NCBI RefSeq assembly: GCF_022899935.1 | Contig: NZ_JALJCJ010000001.1 | Coordinates: forward strand, 62,001-126,000 | Length of the DNA stretch: 64,000 bases | Source of the DNA: Shinella curvata | GTDB taxonomy: Bacteria; Pseudomonadota; Alphaproteobacteria; Rhizobiales; Rhizobiaceae | Direction: 5' to 3' | Shown: piece after piece, positions 11,306-18,150 of the stretch | Layout of the letters: each line of letters starts with the position of its first letter | Numbering within the stretch: position 1 is the first letter of the stretch | Position numbers and translations under genes: made by a program | The notes under the pieces: model-generated | Told to the model about the DNA's origin: nothing | Database searches by the model: none | Seen by the model: only the letters and a program-made list of their open reading frames with translations

Positions 11306-12715
11306 TCAGCGCCCGAGCCAGCGGGCGCAATCTTCGAGCGCGCGTGCCGCGGTTGCCTGTTTTTTGGCGACTGCCTTGTCCTTGCCGCGAAACCGCTTCA
11401 GCCCTTCGGGACGGACGACCGCGCCGGGTTCCAGCGGCGGGAAGAGGCCGAAATTCACGTTCATCGGCTGGAAGGAACGTTTGCCCGGCTCGTCGTCGGA
11501 GACGATGTGGCCGCCGGTGATGTGGTTCAGCAATGCGCCGAAGGCCGTCGTTTCCGGCGGCAGCGACGGCGTCTGGCCGAGCCGTTCGGCCGCGGCGAAG
11601 CGGCCGGCGAGCAAGCCGATGCTGGCGCTTTCCACATAGCCTTCACAGCCGGTGATCTGGCCGGCGAATCGCAGGCCCGGACGGCCCTTCAGCGTCAGCG
11701 ACCGATCGAGCAGCGTCGGCGAATTGATATAGGTATTGCGGTGCAGGCCGCCGAGGCGGGCGAATTCCGCGTTTTCCAGGCCGGGAATCAGCCGGAAGAT
11801 TTCGGCCTGCGCGCCATATTTCAACTTCGTCTGGAAACCGACCATGTTGTAGAGCGTGCCGAGCGCATTGTCCTGGCGCAACTGCACGACAGCATAGGCC
11901 TTGACGGTCGGATTGTGCGCATTGGTCAGGCCCATCGGCTTCATCGGGCCGTGGCGCAGGGTCTCGCGGCCGCGCTCGGCCATCACCTCGATCGGCAGGC
12001 AGCCATCGAAATAGGGCGTGCCTTCCCATTCCTTGAAGCCCGTCGTGTCGCCGGCGATCAGCGCATCGACGAAGGCATTGTACTGCGCTTCGTCCATCGG
12101 GCAGTTGATATAGTCCTTGCCCGTGCCGCCGGGGCCGACCTTGTCGTAGCGCGACTGGAACCAGCAGACATCCATATTGATGCTGGCGGTGTGCACGATC
12201 GGCGCGATCGCATCGAAGAAGGCAAGCGAATCGGCGCCGGTGCGCGCCTGGATCGCGGCGGCAAGCGAGGGCGCGGTGAGCGGGCCGGTGGCGATGATCG
12301 CCTGGTCCCACGCTTCCGGCGGCAGGCCGGTGACTTCCTCGCGGGTGATGGTGATCAGCGGATGGCTTTCGAGCGCAGCCGTGACGGCGGCAGAAAAACC
12401 GTCGCGGTCGACGGCGAGCGCGCCGCCGGCCGGCACCTGGTTGGCATCGGCTGAACGCATGATGAGCGAGCCGGCAAGCCGCATTTCGGCATGCAGAACG
12501 CCCACGGCATTGGAGGTGGCGTCATCCGAGCGGAAGGAATTGGAGCAGACGAGCTCGGCGAGGCTGTCCGTCTTGTGCGCATCCGTGCCGCGCACGCCGC
12601 GCATTTCATGCAGGATGACGGGAACGCCGGTTTCGGCGATCTGCCAGGCGGCTTCCGAGCCGGCTAGGCCGCCGCCGATGACATGGATGGGGGTGTGGGA
12701 AGAGGTCTTGGTCAT
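11306..12715 (-). CDS. trmFO: tRNA (uracil-5-)-methyltransferase, folate/FAD-dependent
   Basis: 469 residues. The N-terminal dinucleotide fold has [18 protein letters not shown], followed by the GidA/TrmFO signature [12 protein letters not shown] and the C-terminal [19 protein letters not shown]. The enzyme makes 5-methyluridine-54 in the T loop of tRNA using methylenetetrahydrofolate and FADH2. I chose ATG 12715 (MTKTSSH), which places the GGGLAG motif near residue 12 as in homologues. It is transcribed alone. Confidence 0.95.
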
Positions 12716-13094: not shown

Positions 13095-13106
13095 TGTGCA
13101 GTGCAA
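13095..13106. repeat. 12-base repeat TGTGCAGTGCAA, copy 1
   Basis: The 12-mer contains the palindrome TGCA-G-TGCA and lies 78 bases upstream of the DUF1127 A start. An identical copy lies at 14325. It resembles TGC-rich palindromes of the kind bound by PhaR-type regulators, but this is only a resemblance. Confidence 0.35.
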
Positions 13107-13298
13107 AGAAAATGCAGCTGCTATGCATTTGTGCAATAAGACGATGACGGATCAGGCAGATGCTCAGCCTGCATGCGAACTAGCCAGAAAATGCCGTTAT
13201 TACGGGCATATAGCTGGATTTGGTGAATGCGAACTTAGACTTGTCAGAATGTCGCATTTGGGGAACTGCGACATTGTGCGCCGCAAAAAGACGCGCAA

Positions 13299-13334
13299 AC
13301 GAAAACGCCCTCCGGTGGGAGCCGGAGGGCGTTC
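13299..13334 (-). terminator. Rho-independent terminator of the second DUF1127 gene
   Basis: A perfect 12-bp stem (AACGCCCTCCGG / CCGGAGGGCGTT, 6-base loop) is followed on the minus strand by TTCGTTTG. It lies 30 bases beyond the stop of the 13364-13507 gene. Confidence 0.75.
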
Positions 13335-13363
13335 GAATTGCGACCCGCAAGGGTCCGTTCGGC

Positions 13364-13507
13364 TTAGATCGAAGCCTTGCGAGCGATGTACGGAATATCG
13401 CTGCGGCCGATGCCGAGGTCGCGAAGTTCACGGTCGGTCATGCGGCCGAGTTCGCTGACGGTCTGACGGTACTTGCGCCAGTTGTTGAAAGAGCGTGCCA
13501 GGTTCAT
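13364..13507 (-). CDS. DUF1127 small Arg-rich protein B (47 aa)
   Basis: This is a paralogue of protein A with the same length and layout: NWRKYRQTVSELGRMTDREL then LRDLGIGRSDIPYIARKASI. A GAAAGGGG ribosome site precedes the ATG. It is read on the same strand as, and downstream of, two anti-SD small RNA genes. Its promoter region shares a 15-base element with the nearer RNA gene at the same offset, which suggests joint control. Confidence 0.92.
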   Translation of the reverse strand: MNLARSFNNWRKYRQTVSELGRMTDRELRDLGIGRSDIPYIARKASI

Positions 13508-13623: not shown

Positions 13624-13638
13624 ATGGCACCCATGCGT
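13624..13638. repeat. 15-base promoter repeat ATGGCACCCATGCGT, copy 1
   Basis: This is identical to 13916-13930. Its edge lies 36 bases upstream (minus strand) of the candidate -10 box of DUF1127 B. It forms part of an imperfect CATGCG-N6-GCATG palindrome. Confidence 0.5.
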
Positions 13639-13739: not shown

Positions 13740-13870
13740 AAAAAGCAACGCCCGCCGGGGGAGGAGATCCGGCGGGCGTTGCTGATATCGATTGGCAGCT
13801 TGGGAGGAGGAGGGGCTGCCAATCCTTGTCGGGGACGTTGGGAGGAGGAGATCGTTGCCCGACCGATGGG
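13740..13870 (-). ncRNA. Anti-SD small RNA of the alpha-r14/cuckoo type, copy 2
   Basis: On the minus strand three hairpins follow one another, each exposing a CTCCTCC(TCC)C motif complementary to Shine-Dalgarno sites. The first has its loop at 13838-13852. The second has a perfect 10-bp stem GATTGGCAGC / GCTGCCAATC (13790-13824). The third is a 14-bp terminator stem (13745-13782) followed by a T5 tail. The total is about 130 nt. This layout of three redundant anti-SD loops matches the alpha-r14 (NfeR1) family of rhizobia and the wider cuckoo/CcsR class. The 5' end is inferred from the -10 box. Confidence 0.85.
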
Positions 13871-13873
13871 AAA

Positions 13874-13879
13874 GTTATA
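13874..13879 (-). promoter_or_regulatory. Candidate -10 box (TATAAC) of small RNA copy 2
   Basis: On the minus strand CTATAAC lies about 7 bases before the inferred RNA 5' end. The hexamer 17 bases upstream (TTTTGC) is a weak -35. The 15-mer repeat begins 37 bases upstream. Confidence 0.45.
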
Positions 13880-13915
13880 GCCTGCCTCGATGGCGAGCAA
13901 AAGCGCACGATTGGA

Positions 13916-13930
13916 ATGGCACCCATGCGT
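13916..13930. repeat. 15-base promoter repeat ATGGCACCCATGCGT, copy 2
   Basis: This is identical to 13624-13638. It lies 37 bases upstream of the small RNA -10 box and continues into a CATGCG-N5-CGCATG palindrome, a plausible activator site near -50. Confidence 0.5.
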
Positions 13931-14040
13931 GAGCCGCATGCGTTCCGCAGTCCGGCGCTCAACGCGACGAGGGCGGCCGCATCGAACCTCGCGGTGGCAA
14001 AAGATTTTGGATGGTTGGGCGGGTTTGCCAGTACTTGGCG

Positions 14041-14168
14041 AAAACAATAACGCCCGCCGGGGGAGGAGATCCGGCGGGCGTCATTAAGAGTGATTGGCAA
14101 CTGGGAGGAGGAGTGTTGCCAATCGTATCGGAGAAGCGCTGGGAGGAGGAGTGCGCTGCTCCGAATTC
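14041..14168 (-). ncRNA. Anti-SD small RNA of the alpha-r14/cuckoo type, copy 1
   Basis: It has the same three-hairpin layout as copy 2. The first stem is GGAGAAGCGC / GCGCTGCTCC (14130-14162, one mismatch); the second is a perfect GATTGGCAAC / GTTGCCAATC (14092-14124); the third is a terminator stem CGCCCGCCGG / CCGGCGGGCG (14051-14080) with tail TTATTGTTTT. All three loops carry CTCCTCC. The terminator arms and loop are identical to copy 2, so the two genes are a tandem duplication about 300 bases apart. The promoter is unclear; TATCGA near 14173-14178 is a weak -10 candidate. Confidence 0.83.
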
Positions 14169-14324
14169 CTGTTCGATACCGTTTCCGGCGTCGGGTCTGT
14201 CGGCATCATGCCGGGCGTTCAACCATTCCGCCCTCCGGTCTGCCTGTCGCCTCAGTGGCGCCTTGGTTTCCGGTCCGAACCATCTCTGATCCGATGACTC
14301 CAATCTAACCTGATCTTTCGATTT

Positions 14325-14336
14325 TGTGCAGTGCAA
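14325..14336. repeat. 12-base repeat TGTGCAGTGCAA, copy 2
   Basis: This is identical to 13095-13106, extended here to the near palindrome TTGTGCAGTGCAA. It lies in the divergent gap between small RNA copy 1 and the DUF2157 gene. Confidence 0.35.
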
Positions 14337-14576
14337 TATGGGAATGGATGATATGCGCCAGCTGCATGCCCGAAATCGAAACGCCACCGGCGTCTTGCTG
14401 CTAAATTTGCCAGGGATTTCTTTATGTCCCGTTAATCATCGCGCCCACCGCATTCCTTTTGGCCCGAATGAGCGGATTGTCGCTTCGATTGCGAATTTCT
14501 GGCGGCGCTATACCGTTTCTCCTGACAGGGTATGCTCGACGCGACTCGTGCGCGTTTTGAAGAGAGGTGGGGACGG

Positions 14577-15680
14577 ATGTATCGGGGCAGGTTGGAACGC
14601 GATCTCAAACTGTGGGCGCAGCAGGGCTTGCTCGATGCGCCGACCGCCGATCGCCTCCTGAAGGAATATGATTCCCGCGAAAGCTCGTTCAGCCTCGGCC
14701 GCGTGCTGATGATGATCGCCGCTCTCCTGATGTCGGCCGCCGTGTTGTTGCTGATCGCCGCCAATTGGGAGGCGATCCCGCGTCTCGTGCGCGTCGTCGG
14801 CATCGTCGCGCTGATCTGGGGCGCCTATCTGACGGGCGGGCTGCTTATCCAGCGTGGCGCGCCGCGCCTTGCCGCAGCCTTCCTTGCCGTCGGTACCGTT
14901 TCCTTCGGCGGCGCCATCGCGCTGATCGGGCAGATGTACCACTTTTCCGGCGATGCACTTCAGGCGATGCTCGTCTGGTTCGCCGGCGCAGTGATTGCTG
15001 CGGCGCTCTTCCGGTCCGGCGCGGTGACCGCCATTGCTGGTTTTCTCGCCTTCGCGGTCGCCTGGACGGACTGGAACGAGGCCTACCGTGCCAGCGATAC
15101 GATGCTGCTCTGGCTGATGCCGCTCATGGCCGTCATCATCATCCTTTTGGTGCGCTACACCGATGCCGGGCGCGTGCGCCACATTGCCTATCTGCTGCTC
15201 GTCGCCTGGCTGGCCTTCATCTATGGCGAACACGATACGCCGACGACCGCCATCATCATCGCATCGCTCGGTGCGCTCGCCTATCTGCTGGCCGCCCTGC
15301 CGCAATCGCCGCTCCACGCGCTGGCCCGCAACGCTGGTGCTGCCCCCGCCTTCTATTCCTATCTCGTGCTGCTGCTCGGCCTGCTCGTCCTCCATTCCGA
15401 GTTCGATGCTGTCGGGGATCGCCTGATGCTCGGCGTCATCACGCTGTTCGTAGCCATCGGCGGCATCGTGTTTTCCGGCAAGGAGAACGGCGCGGTGCGC
15501 TATCTCGGTTACGCGACCTTCGCTGCCGAAACGCTGTATCTCGCCTCCGAGACGATCGGCTCGATCATTGGCACATCCGGCTTCTTCCTGATCTCCGGTC
15601 TCGTTGTCGCGCTGATCGCCTGGGCCGTGATCGTCGTCGAACGCCGCTTTTCCAAGGCTGAAACCAAGGCGGAGGCCTGA
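14577..15680 (+). CDS. DUF2157 multi-pass membrane protein
   Basis: 367 residues. The N-terminal 40 residues are the DUF2157 cytoplasmic motif (LERDLKLWAQQGLLD), followed by about ten to eleven membrane segments, the first near VLMMIAALLMSAAVLLLIAA. The function is unknown. ATG 14577 follows GAGAGGTGGGG and gives the usual N-terminus. It lies 3 bases before the GDYXXLXY gene, its usual partner. Confidence 0.85.
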   Translation: MYRGRLERDLKLWAQQGLLDAPTADRLLKEYDSRESSFSLGRVLMMIAALLMSAAVLLLIAANWEAIPRLVRVVGIVALIWGAYLTGGLLIQRGAPRLAAAFLAVGTVSFGGAIALIGQMYHFSGDALQAMLVWFAGAVIAAALFRSGAVTAIAGFLAFAVAWTDWNEAYRASDTMLLWLMPLMAVIIILLVRYTDAGRVRHIAYLLLVAWLAFIYGEHDTPTTAIIIASLGALAYLLAALPQSPLHALARNAGAAPAFYSYLVLLLGLLVLHSEFDAVGDRLMLGVITLFVAIGGIVFSGKENGAVRYLGYATFAAETLYLASETIGSIIGTSGFFLISGLVVALIAWAVIVVERRFSKAETKAEA

Positions 15681-15683
15681 GCC

Positions 15684-16274
15684 ATGTCGATCCTCTCTTC
15701 TTTCCGCATTCCGCCGATCGCCGCCGCCATCATCGCAGCGTCCCTCCAGACGGCCGTGCTTGGTTATATGGTGGAAGGCCGCGCCTCGATCCTGCGCAAT
15801 GGCGCGGATATCAGGCTGAAAACGCTGCCCGTCGATCCTCGCGATCTGCTGCGCGGCGATTACGTCATCCTGTCCTACGCGATTTCGACGATCCCGAAGA
15901 GCATCGTCACCGGCGAGGTGCCAAAGGTGAATGGCCGTGAGCGCCTCGTCGTGCGCCTGAAGCCCGGCGCGGACGGGTTGTGGACGGCGACAGAGGCGAG
16001 TTTCGGTACTCTGGCTCCGGAGGAGGGCAGTGTTCTCCTGCGCACGCAGCCCTTCGATTATTATTCGGTGACCGACGGCGTTCTGCCGGACAGTCTCTTC
16101 GTCAGCTACGGCCTCGAGCGATATTATGTGCCGGAAGGCGAGGGCAAGGTGCTGGAAGATGCCCGCAATCAGGAGGAGCTCGAGGTGGAGGCCCGTGTGT
16201 CGAAAGACGGCACGCCGCAGATCGCCCGGCTGATCCTGCGCGGCGAACCGGTCTATGACGAACCGCTCTATTGA
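15684..16274 (+). CDS. GDYXXLXY-domain protein
   Basis: 196 residues. An N-terminal membrane segment (about residues 8-27) is followed by an outside domain with the family's name motif, GDYVILSY, after VDPRDLLR, and the C-terminal signature ARLILRGEPVYDEPLY. The role is unknown. It is encoded with DUF2157 proteins in many bacteria, and the 3-base spacing here implies one operon. Confidence 0.88.
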   Translation: MSILSSFRIPPIAAAIIAASLQTAVLGYMVEGRASILRNGADIRLKTLPVDPRDLLRGDYVILSYAISTIPKSIVTGEVPKVNGRERLVVRLKPGADGLWTATEASFGTLAPEEGSVLLRTQPFDYYSVTDGVLPDSLFVSYGLERYYVPEGEGKVLEDARNQEELEVEARVSKDGTPQIARLILRGEPVYDEPLY

Positions 16275-16494: not shown

Positions 16495-16674
16495 GAGCCA
16501 CAAAACGCGAAAACAACGGGTTTTCGCGCGGCGTGGAGCATTTCAGCGCGCCATTTTGCTTGCCAAAAGGCCACCGAATTCAGTAAAGCCACTGCCGGCA
16601 AATGGACCGGCGGGGTGCTCGCCATAACCGGAACCGCGGTTTGAGCACCGCCAACTCGAAATGAAGGTTTGAAC

Positions 16675-18150
16675 ATGCAGGTTATCGAAACGCTCGCTGA
16701 AGGGCTGAAGCGCGAAATCAAGGTCGTCATCCCGGCCAAGGACATGGAAGCTCAGATGAACGAGCGTCTTGAGGACGTGAAGGGCCGTGTCCGCATCAAC
16801 GGCTTCCGTCCGGGCAAGGTACCCTTCGCCCATCTCAAGAAGATGTACGGCAAGTCCGTCATGGCCGAACTCGTCAACGAGATCGTCCGCGACCGCCCGA
16901 CCGCGATCCTGTCCGAGCGCGGCGAAAAGTCGGCCACGCAGCCGGAAGTCGCGATGACCGAAGACCAGGCCGAAGCCGAGAAGATCCTGAACGGCCAGGC
17001 CGATTTCGAATTCACGCTCTCCTACGAAGTCATCCCTGCGATCGACCTCAAGGACAATTCCGGCATCACCGTCACCCGTGAAGTCGTCGACATCGACGCC
17101 AAGGAAGTTGACGAGCAGATCCTCAAGATCGCCGAAAGCGCCCGCTCCTACGAAACCAAGAAGGGCAAGGCCGCCGATGGCGACCGCGTCACGATCGATT
17201 ACCTCGGCAAGGTCGACGGTGAAGCCTTCGACGGCGGCAAGGACGAAGACGCAGAACTCGTTCTCGGCTCCAACCGCTTCATCCCGGGCTTCGAAGAGCA
17301 GCTCGTCGGCCTGAAGGCTGGCGACGAGAAGGTCATCACCGTCACCTTCCCGGCTGAATACCCGGCTGCAAACCTCGCCGGCAAGGAAGCCACCTTCGAC
17401 ATCAACGTCAAGGAAGTCGCTGCTCCTTCGGAAGTCGAGATCAACGATGAGCTGGCCACCAAGCTCGGCCTCGAATCGGCTGACAAGCTGCGCGAAATCG
17501 TTCGCGGCCAGATCGAAAGCCAGTACGGCTCGGTCAGCCGCCAGAAGGTCAAGCGTCAGATCCTCGACCAGCTCGACGAGATGTACAAGTTCGAAACCCC
17601 GGAGCGCCTGGTCGAAGCCGAGTTTGAAAACATCTGGCGCCAGATCAACACCGATCTCGCTCAGTCCGGCAAGACCTTCGCTGACGAAGACACGACCGAA
17701 GAAGCCGCTCGCGAAGAATACCGCAAGCTCGCCGAACGCCGCGTACGCCTCGGCCTCGTTCTCTCGGAAATCGGCGAAAAGGCCGGCGTCCAGGTAACCG
17801 ACGAGGAAATGCAGCAGTCGCTCTACCAGCAGCTGCGCCAGTTCCCGGGCCAGGAAAAGCAGATCCTCGAATACTTCCAGAAGACCCCGGGTGCCGCCGC
17901 TTCGCTGCGCGCGCCGATCTTCGAAGAAAAGGTCGTCGATCACCTGCTCGGTGAAATCAAGGTAACGGACAAGACCGTTTCCAAGGAAGACCTGCTCGCC
18001 GACGACGAAGACGGCGACGACAAGGGCTCCAAGAAGGCTGCGCCGAAGAAGAAGGCTGCCGCCAAGGCCGAAGCTCAGGAAGGCGAAGACGCCGCTCCGA
18101 AGAAGAAGGCCCCGGCCAAGAAGAAGGCCGCCGAAGGCGACGCCGAGTAA
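16675..18150 (+). CDS. tig: Trigger factor (ribosome-associated chaperone, PPIase)
   Basis: 491 residues. The N-terminal ribosome-binding domain carries the signature NGFRPGKVP (about residues 43-51, G-F-R-x-G-x-x-P). The FKBP-type PPIase domain spans about 160-245 ([19 protein letters not shown]), and the C-terminal helical arms follow. The last 40 or so residues form a Lys/Ala/Glu tail ([15 protein letters not shown]) not present in enterobacterial Tig. Trigger factor binds emerging chains at the ribosomal exit. ATG 16675 follows GAAGG; a strong terminator follows. Confidence 0.97.

Follow-up and report, generated by a model that had tools for sequence, protein, structure and literature searches.

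The window, a stretch of 64,000 nucleotides (64 kb) of the Shinella curvata genome that was analysed as a whole, carries two small RNA units and two short DUF1127 genes on its minus strand. In the order of transcription these are unit 1, unit 2, DUF1127 A and DUF1127 B, followed by trmFO. The features are collected in Table 1. On the opposite strand, two further genes stand between the cluster and a frame that we take, from reading it, to be tig.

Table 1. Features of the RNA/DUF1127 cluster in the window. Matrix scores refer to the LsrB/VtlR box matrix, ranked within the window.
Feature	Position	Strand	Evidence
Proposed promoter of unit 1, class II	14303..14354	-	Reversed LsrB-type box with one mismatch, 14342-14354; TTGCACTGCA, 14336-14327; -10-like TTAGAT, 14308-14303
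Proposed structured leader of unit 1	14170..14295	-	Pseudoknot strands GGTT, 14224-14221, and GACC, 14197-14194, with one G-U pair here
Unit 1, alpha-r14 anti-SD RNA core	14045..14169	-	RF02344, 122.4 bits; fold
Proposed promoter of unit 2, class I	13875..13928	-	Exact forward box GCATGGGTGCCAT, 13928-13916; -10-like CTATAA, 13880-13875, by eye
Unit 2, alpha-r14 anti-SD RNA	13743..13867	-	RF02344, 90.4 bits; fold
Exact forward box GCATGGGTGCCAT before DUF1127 A, class I	13624..13636	-	Matrix 20.4, second best of the window
DUF1127 A, 46 aa	13364..13504	-	PF06568, 61.6 bits (cut-off 23.3)
Terminator of DUF1127 A	13300..13387	-	CUCCC loop; weak ar14 match, 24.6 bits (15.6 bits by a model built here)
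Proposed operator of DUF1127 B, class II	13097..13137	-	Exact reversed box, 13125-13137; TTGCACTGCA, 13106-13097; matrix 16.7, third best of the window
DUF1127 B, 48 aa	12874..13020	-	PF06568, 55.5 bits (cut-off 23.3)
trmFO, conserved neighbour	11306..12712	-	NCBIfam TrmFO equivalog over cut-off; synteny
DUF2157 gene and GDYXXLXY-protein gene, between the cluster and the tig-like frame	14532..16274	+	
Presumed tig frame	16669..18150	+	Recognised by reading

An earlier note, made by reading the letters alone, had proposed two anti-Shine-Dalgarno (anti-SD) RNAs of about 130 nt, related to the alpha-r14 and cuckoo RNAs, beside two DUF1127 genes. A covariance search confirmed the family, as both units matched the full ar14 model (RF02344) above its cut-off of 58.8 bits. 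Secondary-structure prediction gave each unit the three hairpins that had been claimed, with -62.1 kcal/mol (z -9.15) for unit 1 and -60.3 kcal/mol (z -7.02) for unit 2, and none of 200 shuffles folded as well in either case. The CU-rich anti-SD motif is unpaired in every loop, as CCTCCTCCC in loops 1 and 2 and as CTCCTCCCCC in loop 3, and the third hairpin is the terminator. CCTCCTCCC occurs four times in the window, each time in loop 1 or loop 2 of a unit, and a count of four was reached in none of 100 shuffles of the window. The arms and loop of the terminator, 33 nt in all, are the same in both units, as had been noticed, and a third copy was not found in the window. The proposed length of about 130 nt suits unit 2; for unit 1, about 255 nt is more probable, as described below.

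Membership in two other families was rejected. The units scored 34.4 and 22.9 bits with the CcsR model (RF02791, cut-off 65.3) and 34.9 and 30.2 bits with the 6C model (RF01066, cut-off 47). The earlier note had also brought in the CcsR RNAs; this assignment fails on placement as well, since the units lie upstream of both DUF1127 genes and not in a DUF1127 3' UTR. Both units belong to the alpha-r14 (NfeR1) family, which was already known, and they form a tandem pair of small RNAs.

A similar pair is found in Sinorhizobium meliloti, which is described here, like the other published systems, from partial texts of the papers cited. In a 2008 table, smrC14 shares its intergenic region with sm7', a prediction of 214 nt that lies upstream (PMC2573895), and a 2010 table lists SmelC397 (124 nt, SmrC14) and SmelC398 (217 nt) on the same strand, the latter as a sequenced transcript (PMC2873474). 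SmrC14 is flanked by SMc02051 and tig (PMC2780559) and was later renamed NfeR1 (PMC7143759). By these tables, unit 2 is probably the counterpart of NfeR1/SmelC397/SmrC14, and its tandem place and strand make unit 1 the probable counterpart of SmelC398 (sm7'). Both pairs match the model, form three anti-SD hairpins and lie in tandem on one strand. NfeR1 and unit 2 are also alike in the LsrB box that precedes them and in having tig as a neighbor, if our reading of the frame is right. The Shinella locus differs in that two extra genes and a tRNA separate the cluster from the tig-like frame. According to a review, only one of the six copies in S. meliloti gives a reliable Northern blot signal (PMC7143759). 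In the literature searched, which left most subscription papers outside, SmelC398 was not met by name beyond PMC2873474. The identity of the locus is firm and already known: it is the Shinella member of the alpha-r14/CIN1 kind. What appears to be new, judging from sequence comparison, is a conserved promoter logic and a leader domain on unit 1.

Conservation and order of the genes

The S. curvata genome contains three ar14 and seven DUF1127 matches over the cut-off. A DUF1127 gene is followed by an ar14 RNA at a second site (L051, G000:C12:164518-167400), where the RNA has a box of its own at about -94; this RNA probably has four hairpins, an extra anti-SD hairpin preceding the start of the model. 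A sub-threshold match of 45.4 bits was also seen (L004, G000:C15:87328-87455). Matches over the cut-off were present in all 21 genomes of the genus, which are close kin, so that counts over them, here and below, are not independent, and in 56 of 61 genomes spread over the family, among the matches listed. With a model built here, 16 of the 21 genus loci showed a further unit some 300 nt downstream of the first.

The two DUF1127 genes were correctly placed by the earlier note, being downstream of the units on the same strand. The RNA-DUF1127 link has been published under the name 'CIN1' (Reinkensmeier and Giegerich 2015, as cited in PMC10253847), and it was borne out by our recount among family genomes and trmFO loci. 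At least 92 of 150 listed ar14 matches lie within 2 kb of a DUF1127 gene, 91 of them on the same strand, in at least 50 of 56 genomes, and at least 57 of 150 lie within 1 kb of another ar14 match; these are lower bounds, drawn from the 150 ar14 and 150 DUF1127 matches listed. CIN1, as defined through the citing paper, resembles the window in having a short DUF1127 gene beside CcsR-like anti-SD RNAs (PMC10253847), whereas the window is RNA-first and has two RNAs and two DUF1127 genes.

The surroundings of trmFO were compared in the best 80 of 591 confirmed relatives, with S. meliloti itself left out of the loci compared. The nearest TrmFO in this set was that of Shinella yambaruensis (95%). Cut-offs were chosen here, at 45 bits for the RNA and 15 for a DUF1127 model built from the loci gathered. 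Among these 80 loci, a DUF1127 gene was found upstream of trmFO and on its strand in 67, an ar14 RNA in 45 and both in 44. The RNA-first order was seen in Shinella, Mycoplana, Sinorhizobium, Ensifer, Rhizobium and their kin, that is, in the Rhizobiaceae, and the DUF-first order in other families (Mesorhizobium, Phyllobacterium, Brucella, Aurantimonas, Roseibium and others), again among the best 80. Pararhizobium haloflavum (L261) has the order RNA-DUF-RNA-DUF. The RNA-upstream order described in the earlier note is correct, but it is not peculiar to this locus, being common in the Rhizobiaceae, and the contrast drawn with Rhodobacter holds as the trait of a large group.

Two Aurantimonas loci (L269 and L276) carry runs of six and four consecutive ar14-like units between a single DUF1127 gene and trmFO. 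In Microvirga, Methylobacterium, Xanthobacteraceae and similar loci (L280, L282-L283, L286-L287, L289-L291, L293, L295, L297-L301, L304), a DUF1127 gene still stands beside trmFO. No ar14 was found in the listed trmFO loci of this type (L280-L304), and the LsrB-type box was mostly absent from them. Behind DUF A, RNA remnants or a full RNA copy were found in L237, L239 and L261, the remnants in the Rhizobium loci L237 and L239 being clearer (32.3 and 28.6 bits) than the match in the window. A downstream RNA copy could plausibly have left the terminator of DUF1127 A as a relic, although terminators so shaped can arise alone.

LsrB/VtlR-type boxes before the four genes

The LsrB/VtlR box has been given as GCAT-N3-TG-N3-T (PMC7486931, PMC8844928). 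NfeR1 is undetectable in S. meliloti without LsrB, which activates it (PMC10746234, PMC8844928). VtlR activates atu1667 and Brucella DUF1127 genes, and binding of LsrB/VtlR has been published for S. meliloti NfeR1 and Agrobacterium atu1667. In the window, sites of this type precede each of the four genes. Like NfeR1, unit 2 is preceded by a box, which is exact and forward here; that of unit 1 is reversed and departs from the pattern at one position. When sites were scored with a matrix trained on other genera, without the S. curvata genome, the unit 2 box (-61 to -49) was the best of the window at 20.5, and the fourth-ranked site reached 11.4 compared to 16.7 for the third. The box of unit 1 was 30th, with both strands ranked. 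In ten shuffled windows, the best site exceeded 16.7 in two (19.7 and 17.8), and none contained two such sites. Since the pattern itself occurs at chance level in the window (nine occurrences compared to 8.1 expected), it is the place and score of the boxes that count rather than their number. A consensus sigma-70 scan found no promoter at the locus.

Exact boxes were then counted by gene class over 118 clusters. They were found, in either orientation, before all seven RNAs that trail another RNA by more than 110 nt, at -57 to -62. The counts were 4 of 10 for RNAs trailing a DUF1127 gene by more than 110 nt and 24 of 71 for first or lone ar14 RNAs, leaving 47 without. For the protein genes, a box preceded 27 of 47 first DUF1127 genes, 10 of 19 behind an RNA and 4 of 19 behind another DUF1127 gene. 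No exact box was found before the 42 RNAs that follow a DUF1127 gene within 110 nt or the 18 that follow another RNA as closely. In four box-bearing classes, the counts lay above all 200 dinucleotide shuffles. When 56 GCAT/TG spacings were tried, the 3,3 spacing was the most common with 80 hits, followed by 41 and 40 (mean 12.9). In tallies made by eye and confounded by descent, a box preceded a DUF1127 gene in 24 of 25 trmFO loci (best 80 of 591) that are DUF1127-first with ar14 behind and in 4 of 18 with DUF1127 alone.

Two candidate promoter classes can be distinguished. Class I, formed by unit 2 and DUF1127 A, would use the forward box; class II, formed by unit 1 and DUF1127 B, would use the reversed box together with TTGC(A/G)(C/G)TGCA. 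The window contains two copies of TTGCACTGCA, one before unit 1 and one before DUF B. The exact forward box precedes unit 2 in all 16 genus copies that have a second unit, and among 39 RNA-first loci it precedes DUF A in 35, or in 36 if both orientations are counted. These 39 loci consist of 19 trmFO loci and 20 of the 21 genus loci (L176 did not qualify), and 21 of them are Shinella. Of 52 unit 1 promoters, 44 contained TTGC..TGCA. Allowing one mismatch, 34 of the 52 had a reversed box at a fixed place before TTGC, and in 16 the box there was exact; an exact reversed box occurred anywhere in 18, and an exact forward box in none. For DUF B, the 39 RNA-first loci gave TTGC..TGCA in 32, an exact reversed box in 24 and no exact forward box. 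There are exceptions: TTGC..TGCA was found before DUF A in 8 of 39 loci, all Shinella and mostly about 240 nt off, and before unit 2 in 1 of 16. In the 18 non-Shinella RNA-first loci, DUF A had the box in 16 and TTGC in none, and DUF B had the reversed box in 5 and TTGC in 11. Class II may not be uniform because the distance from the reversed box to TTGC is 18 for unit 1 and 31 for DUF B. Several unit 1 promoters (L178, L184, L059, L070, L109) contain paired reversed boxes 22 nt apart, and two boxes so spaced are what is expected of a LysR-type tetramer. Overall, two promoter kinds of one regulator seem to drive the RNA/DUF1127 genes.

A candidate for the regulator's own locus was seen elsewhere in the S. 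curvata genome. Five suhB-family RNAs scored over the cut-off, and two of these lie in tandem next to a LysR-family gene, with an exact box between the gene and the RNAs (L324, box 1395-1407). A frame in L324 was taken by reading to be trxB-like. The LysR-family gene had 55 NCBIfam matches, with none over the cut-off among the 25 listed. The arrangement has the same layout as the published lsrB-abcR1-abcR2, and L324 is likely this locus in S. curvata.

A candidate leader on unit 1

In 19 of the 21 genus genomes, over 100 nt separate the conserved operator and -10 region of unit 1 from the RNA core; in the other two (L171 and L172) these elements are less than 30 nt from the RNA start, the leader being missing. 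Unit 1 of the window probably starts near 14295, about 126 nt upstream of the core, and the RNA probably begins with a pseudoknotted leader that is not in Rfam and was previously undescribed. No Rfam match to the leader was found on the minus strand at E values up to 10. The length of SmelC398 is compatible with a leader of about 90 nt. A second copy was not found in the S. curvata genome, where the next match had an E value of 0.057, and a mobile repeat was rejected on this ground.

In the leader alignment, 95.1% of cells were paired and seven pairs were changed on both sides. The covariation score was 0.167 compared to 0.097, and none of 500 shuffles, which ignore kinship, scored as high. 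Since the broad alignment (A4) was gappy, the pseudoknot was tested with a parser that looks for a hairpin A, an adjoining hairpin B and a 4-nt strand pairing with loop A. A score of at least 12 was obtained for 29 of 53 leaders, compared to 2 to 8 in ten shuffle rounds. No parse was returned for 20 of the 53, among them the window's own leader, which has one G-U pair in these strands and fails the strict rule. The pairing strands are GGUC/GACC in most leaders, GAUC/GAUC in L185 and L186, GGCC/GGCC in L228 and L248 and GACC/GGUC in L229; several parses in distant loci use unrelated 4-mers. Folded alone, the leader is modestly stable (z -1.97). Leaders of similar design are present in other genera. 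The idea of a widespread element was rejected: of 151 family genomes searched with model R2, 14 gave a match at E of 0.01 or less, only four of these below 1e-5 (G000, G070, G054 and G057), and most of the weak R2 matches may be due to chance. R2 was also run on 66 selected loci, of which 50 came from the 80 trmFO loci and 16 from elsewhere, and it gave 19 matches at E of 1 or less.

Proposed roles of the two RNA/DUF1127 pairs

We are confident in the following explanation as a whole: the locus would encode two trans-acting anti-SD RNAs and two DUF1127 proteins, responsive to LsrB/VtlR through two promoter classes, with a leader on unit 1. The anti-SD loops of NfeR1 silence transport and metabolic mRNAs (PMC10746234, PMC8844928, PMC7143759). 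By analogy with NfeR1, the CU-rich loops of both units would pair with the ribosome-binding sites of many mRNAs, including transporter mRNAs, and silence their translation. The four genes are predicted to answer to LsrB/VtlR, a LysR-type regulator, through their boxes. Most likely, two RNA/protein pairs would be delivered, and one regulator would switch the pairs in two different ways. The earlier note had proposed one stress or osmotic response module of four genes. Shared regulation is supported by the boxes, but with two promoter classes the module is not one transcription unit by its anatomy, and the word osmotic leans on published NfeR1 phenotypes (PMC7143759) rather than on this window. 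Reports on DUF1127 proteins describe binding to RNA (CcaF1) as well as to protein (PMC12501420), and a direct action of the DUF1127 protein on the neighboring RNA would be possible.

Rhodobacter sphaeroides likewise has a DUF1127 gene, ccaF1, linked with CCUCCUCCC RNAs in tandem; there RNase E releases CcsR1-4 from the 3' UTR of this gene, behind an RpoHI/RpoHII promoter. The shared CCUCCUCCC loops and the DUF1127 linkage could suggest that the RNAs described here are also CcsR-type and cut from DUF1127 transcripts. An RNA 28-44 nt behind the DUF1127 domain is common in the family among the matches listed, and RNAs this close behind a DUF1127 gene lack their own box, which fits such an origin. 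In the window, however, the RNAs precede both DUF1127 genes, each has its own terminator, unit 2 has its own LsrB-type box and both fall below the CcsR1 cut-off, making a CcsR origin highly improbable. Unit 2 could instead act mainly in cis, with read-through of its terminator feeding DUF1127 A and the RNA serving as the leader of the DUF1127 mRNA. The two share a strand, with about 240 nt between the end of unit 2 and DUF A; the strong terminator of unit 2 and the conserved exact box of DUF A itself argue against this, and we consider it very unlikely.

Alternatively, unit 1 could be a duplicate that is redundant or in decay, with a leader that is just spacer or an old insertion. The two genus genomes without a leader, its modest fold when taken alone and the failure of the window's copy under the strict pseudoknot rule are consistent with decay. 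On the other hand, unit 1 outscores its tandem neighbor in the genus (among the matches listed), the leader is single-copy, covarying and of a design seen in other genera, and SmelC398 is a sequenced transcript (PMC2873474). Decay is therefore unlikely. A more elaborate version of the preferred explanation, two LsrB/VtlR-responsive pairs, can be offered tentatively, and we would not bet on it: a two-channel device in which two RNAs of identical anti-SD output are each matched to one DUF1127 protein by promoter class, and one regulator runs the two pairs in different states, with the unit 1 leader gating its RNA by sensing a ligand, a protein or its own processing. If this were true, the design would be new, with a sensor-like domain placed ahead of a broadly acting anti-SD silencer.

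The LsrB/VtlR regulon (abcR1, vrsA, atu1667 and Brucella DUF1127 genes) shares with the window the GCAT-N3-TG-N3-T box and DUF1127 targets, and the partial texts consulted do not handle anti-SD RNA and DUF1127 genes as one LsrB-controlled locus. The cluster joins three threads that stand apart in this literature: the NfeR1/cuckoo anti-SD RNAs, the DUF1127 proteins of debated function and the redox-linked LsrB/VtlR. The leader offers a defined RNA domain that is open to study in S. meliloti SmelC398. If the boxes work, the RNA and the small protein would be outputs of one switch across much of Rhizobiales, and the action of the DUF1127 protein on the adjoining RNA would become testable.
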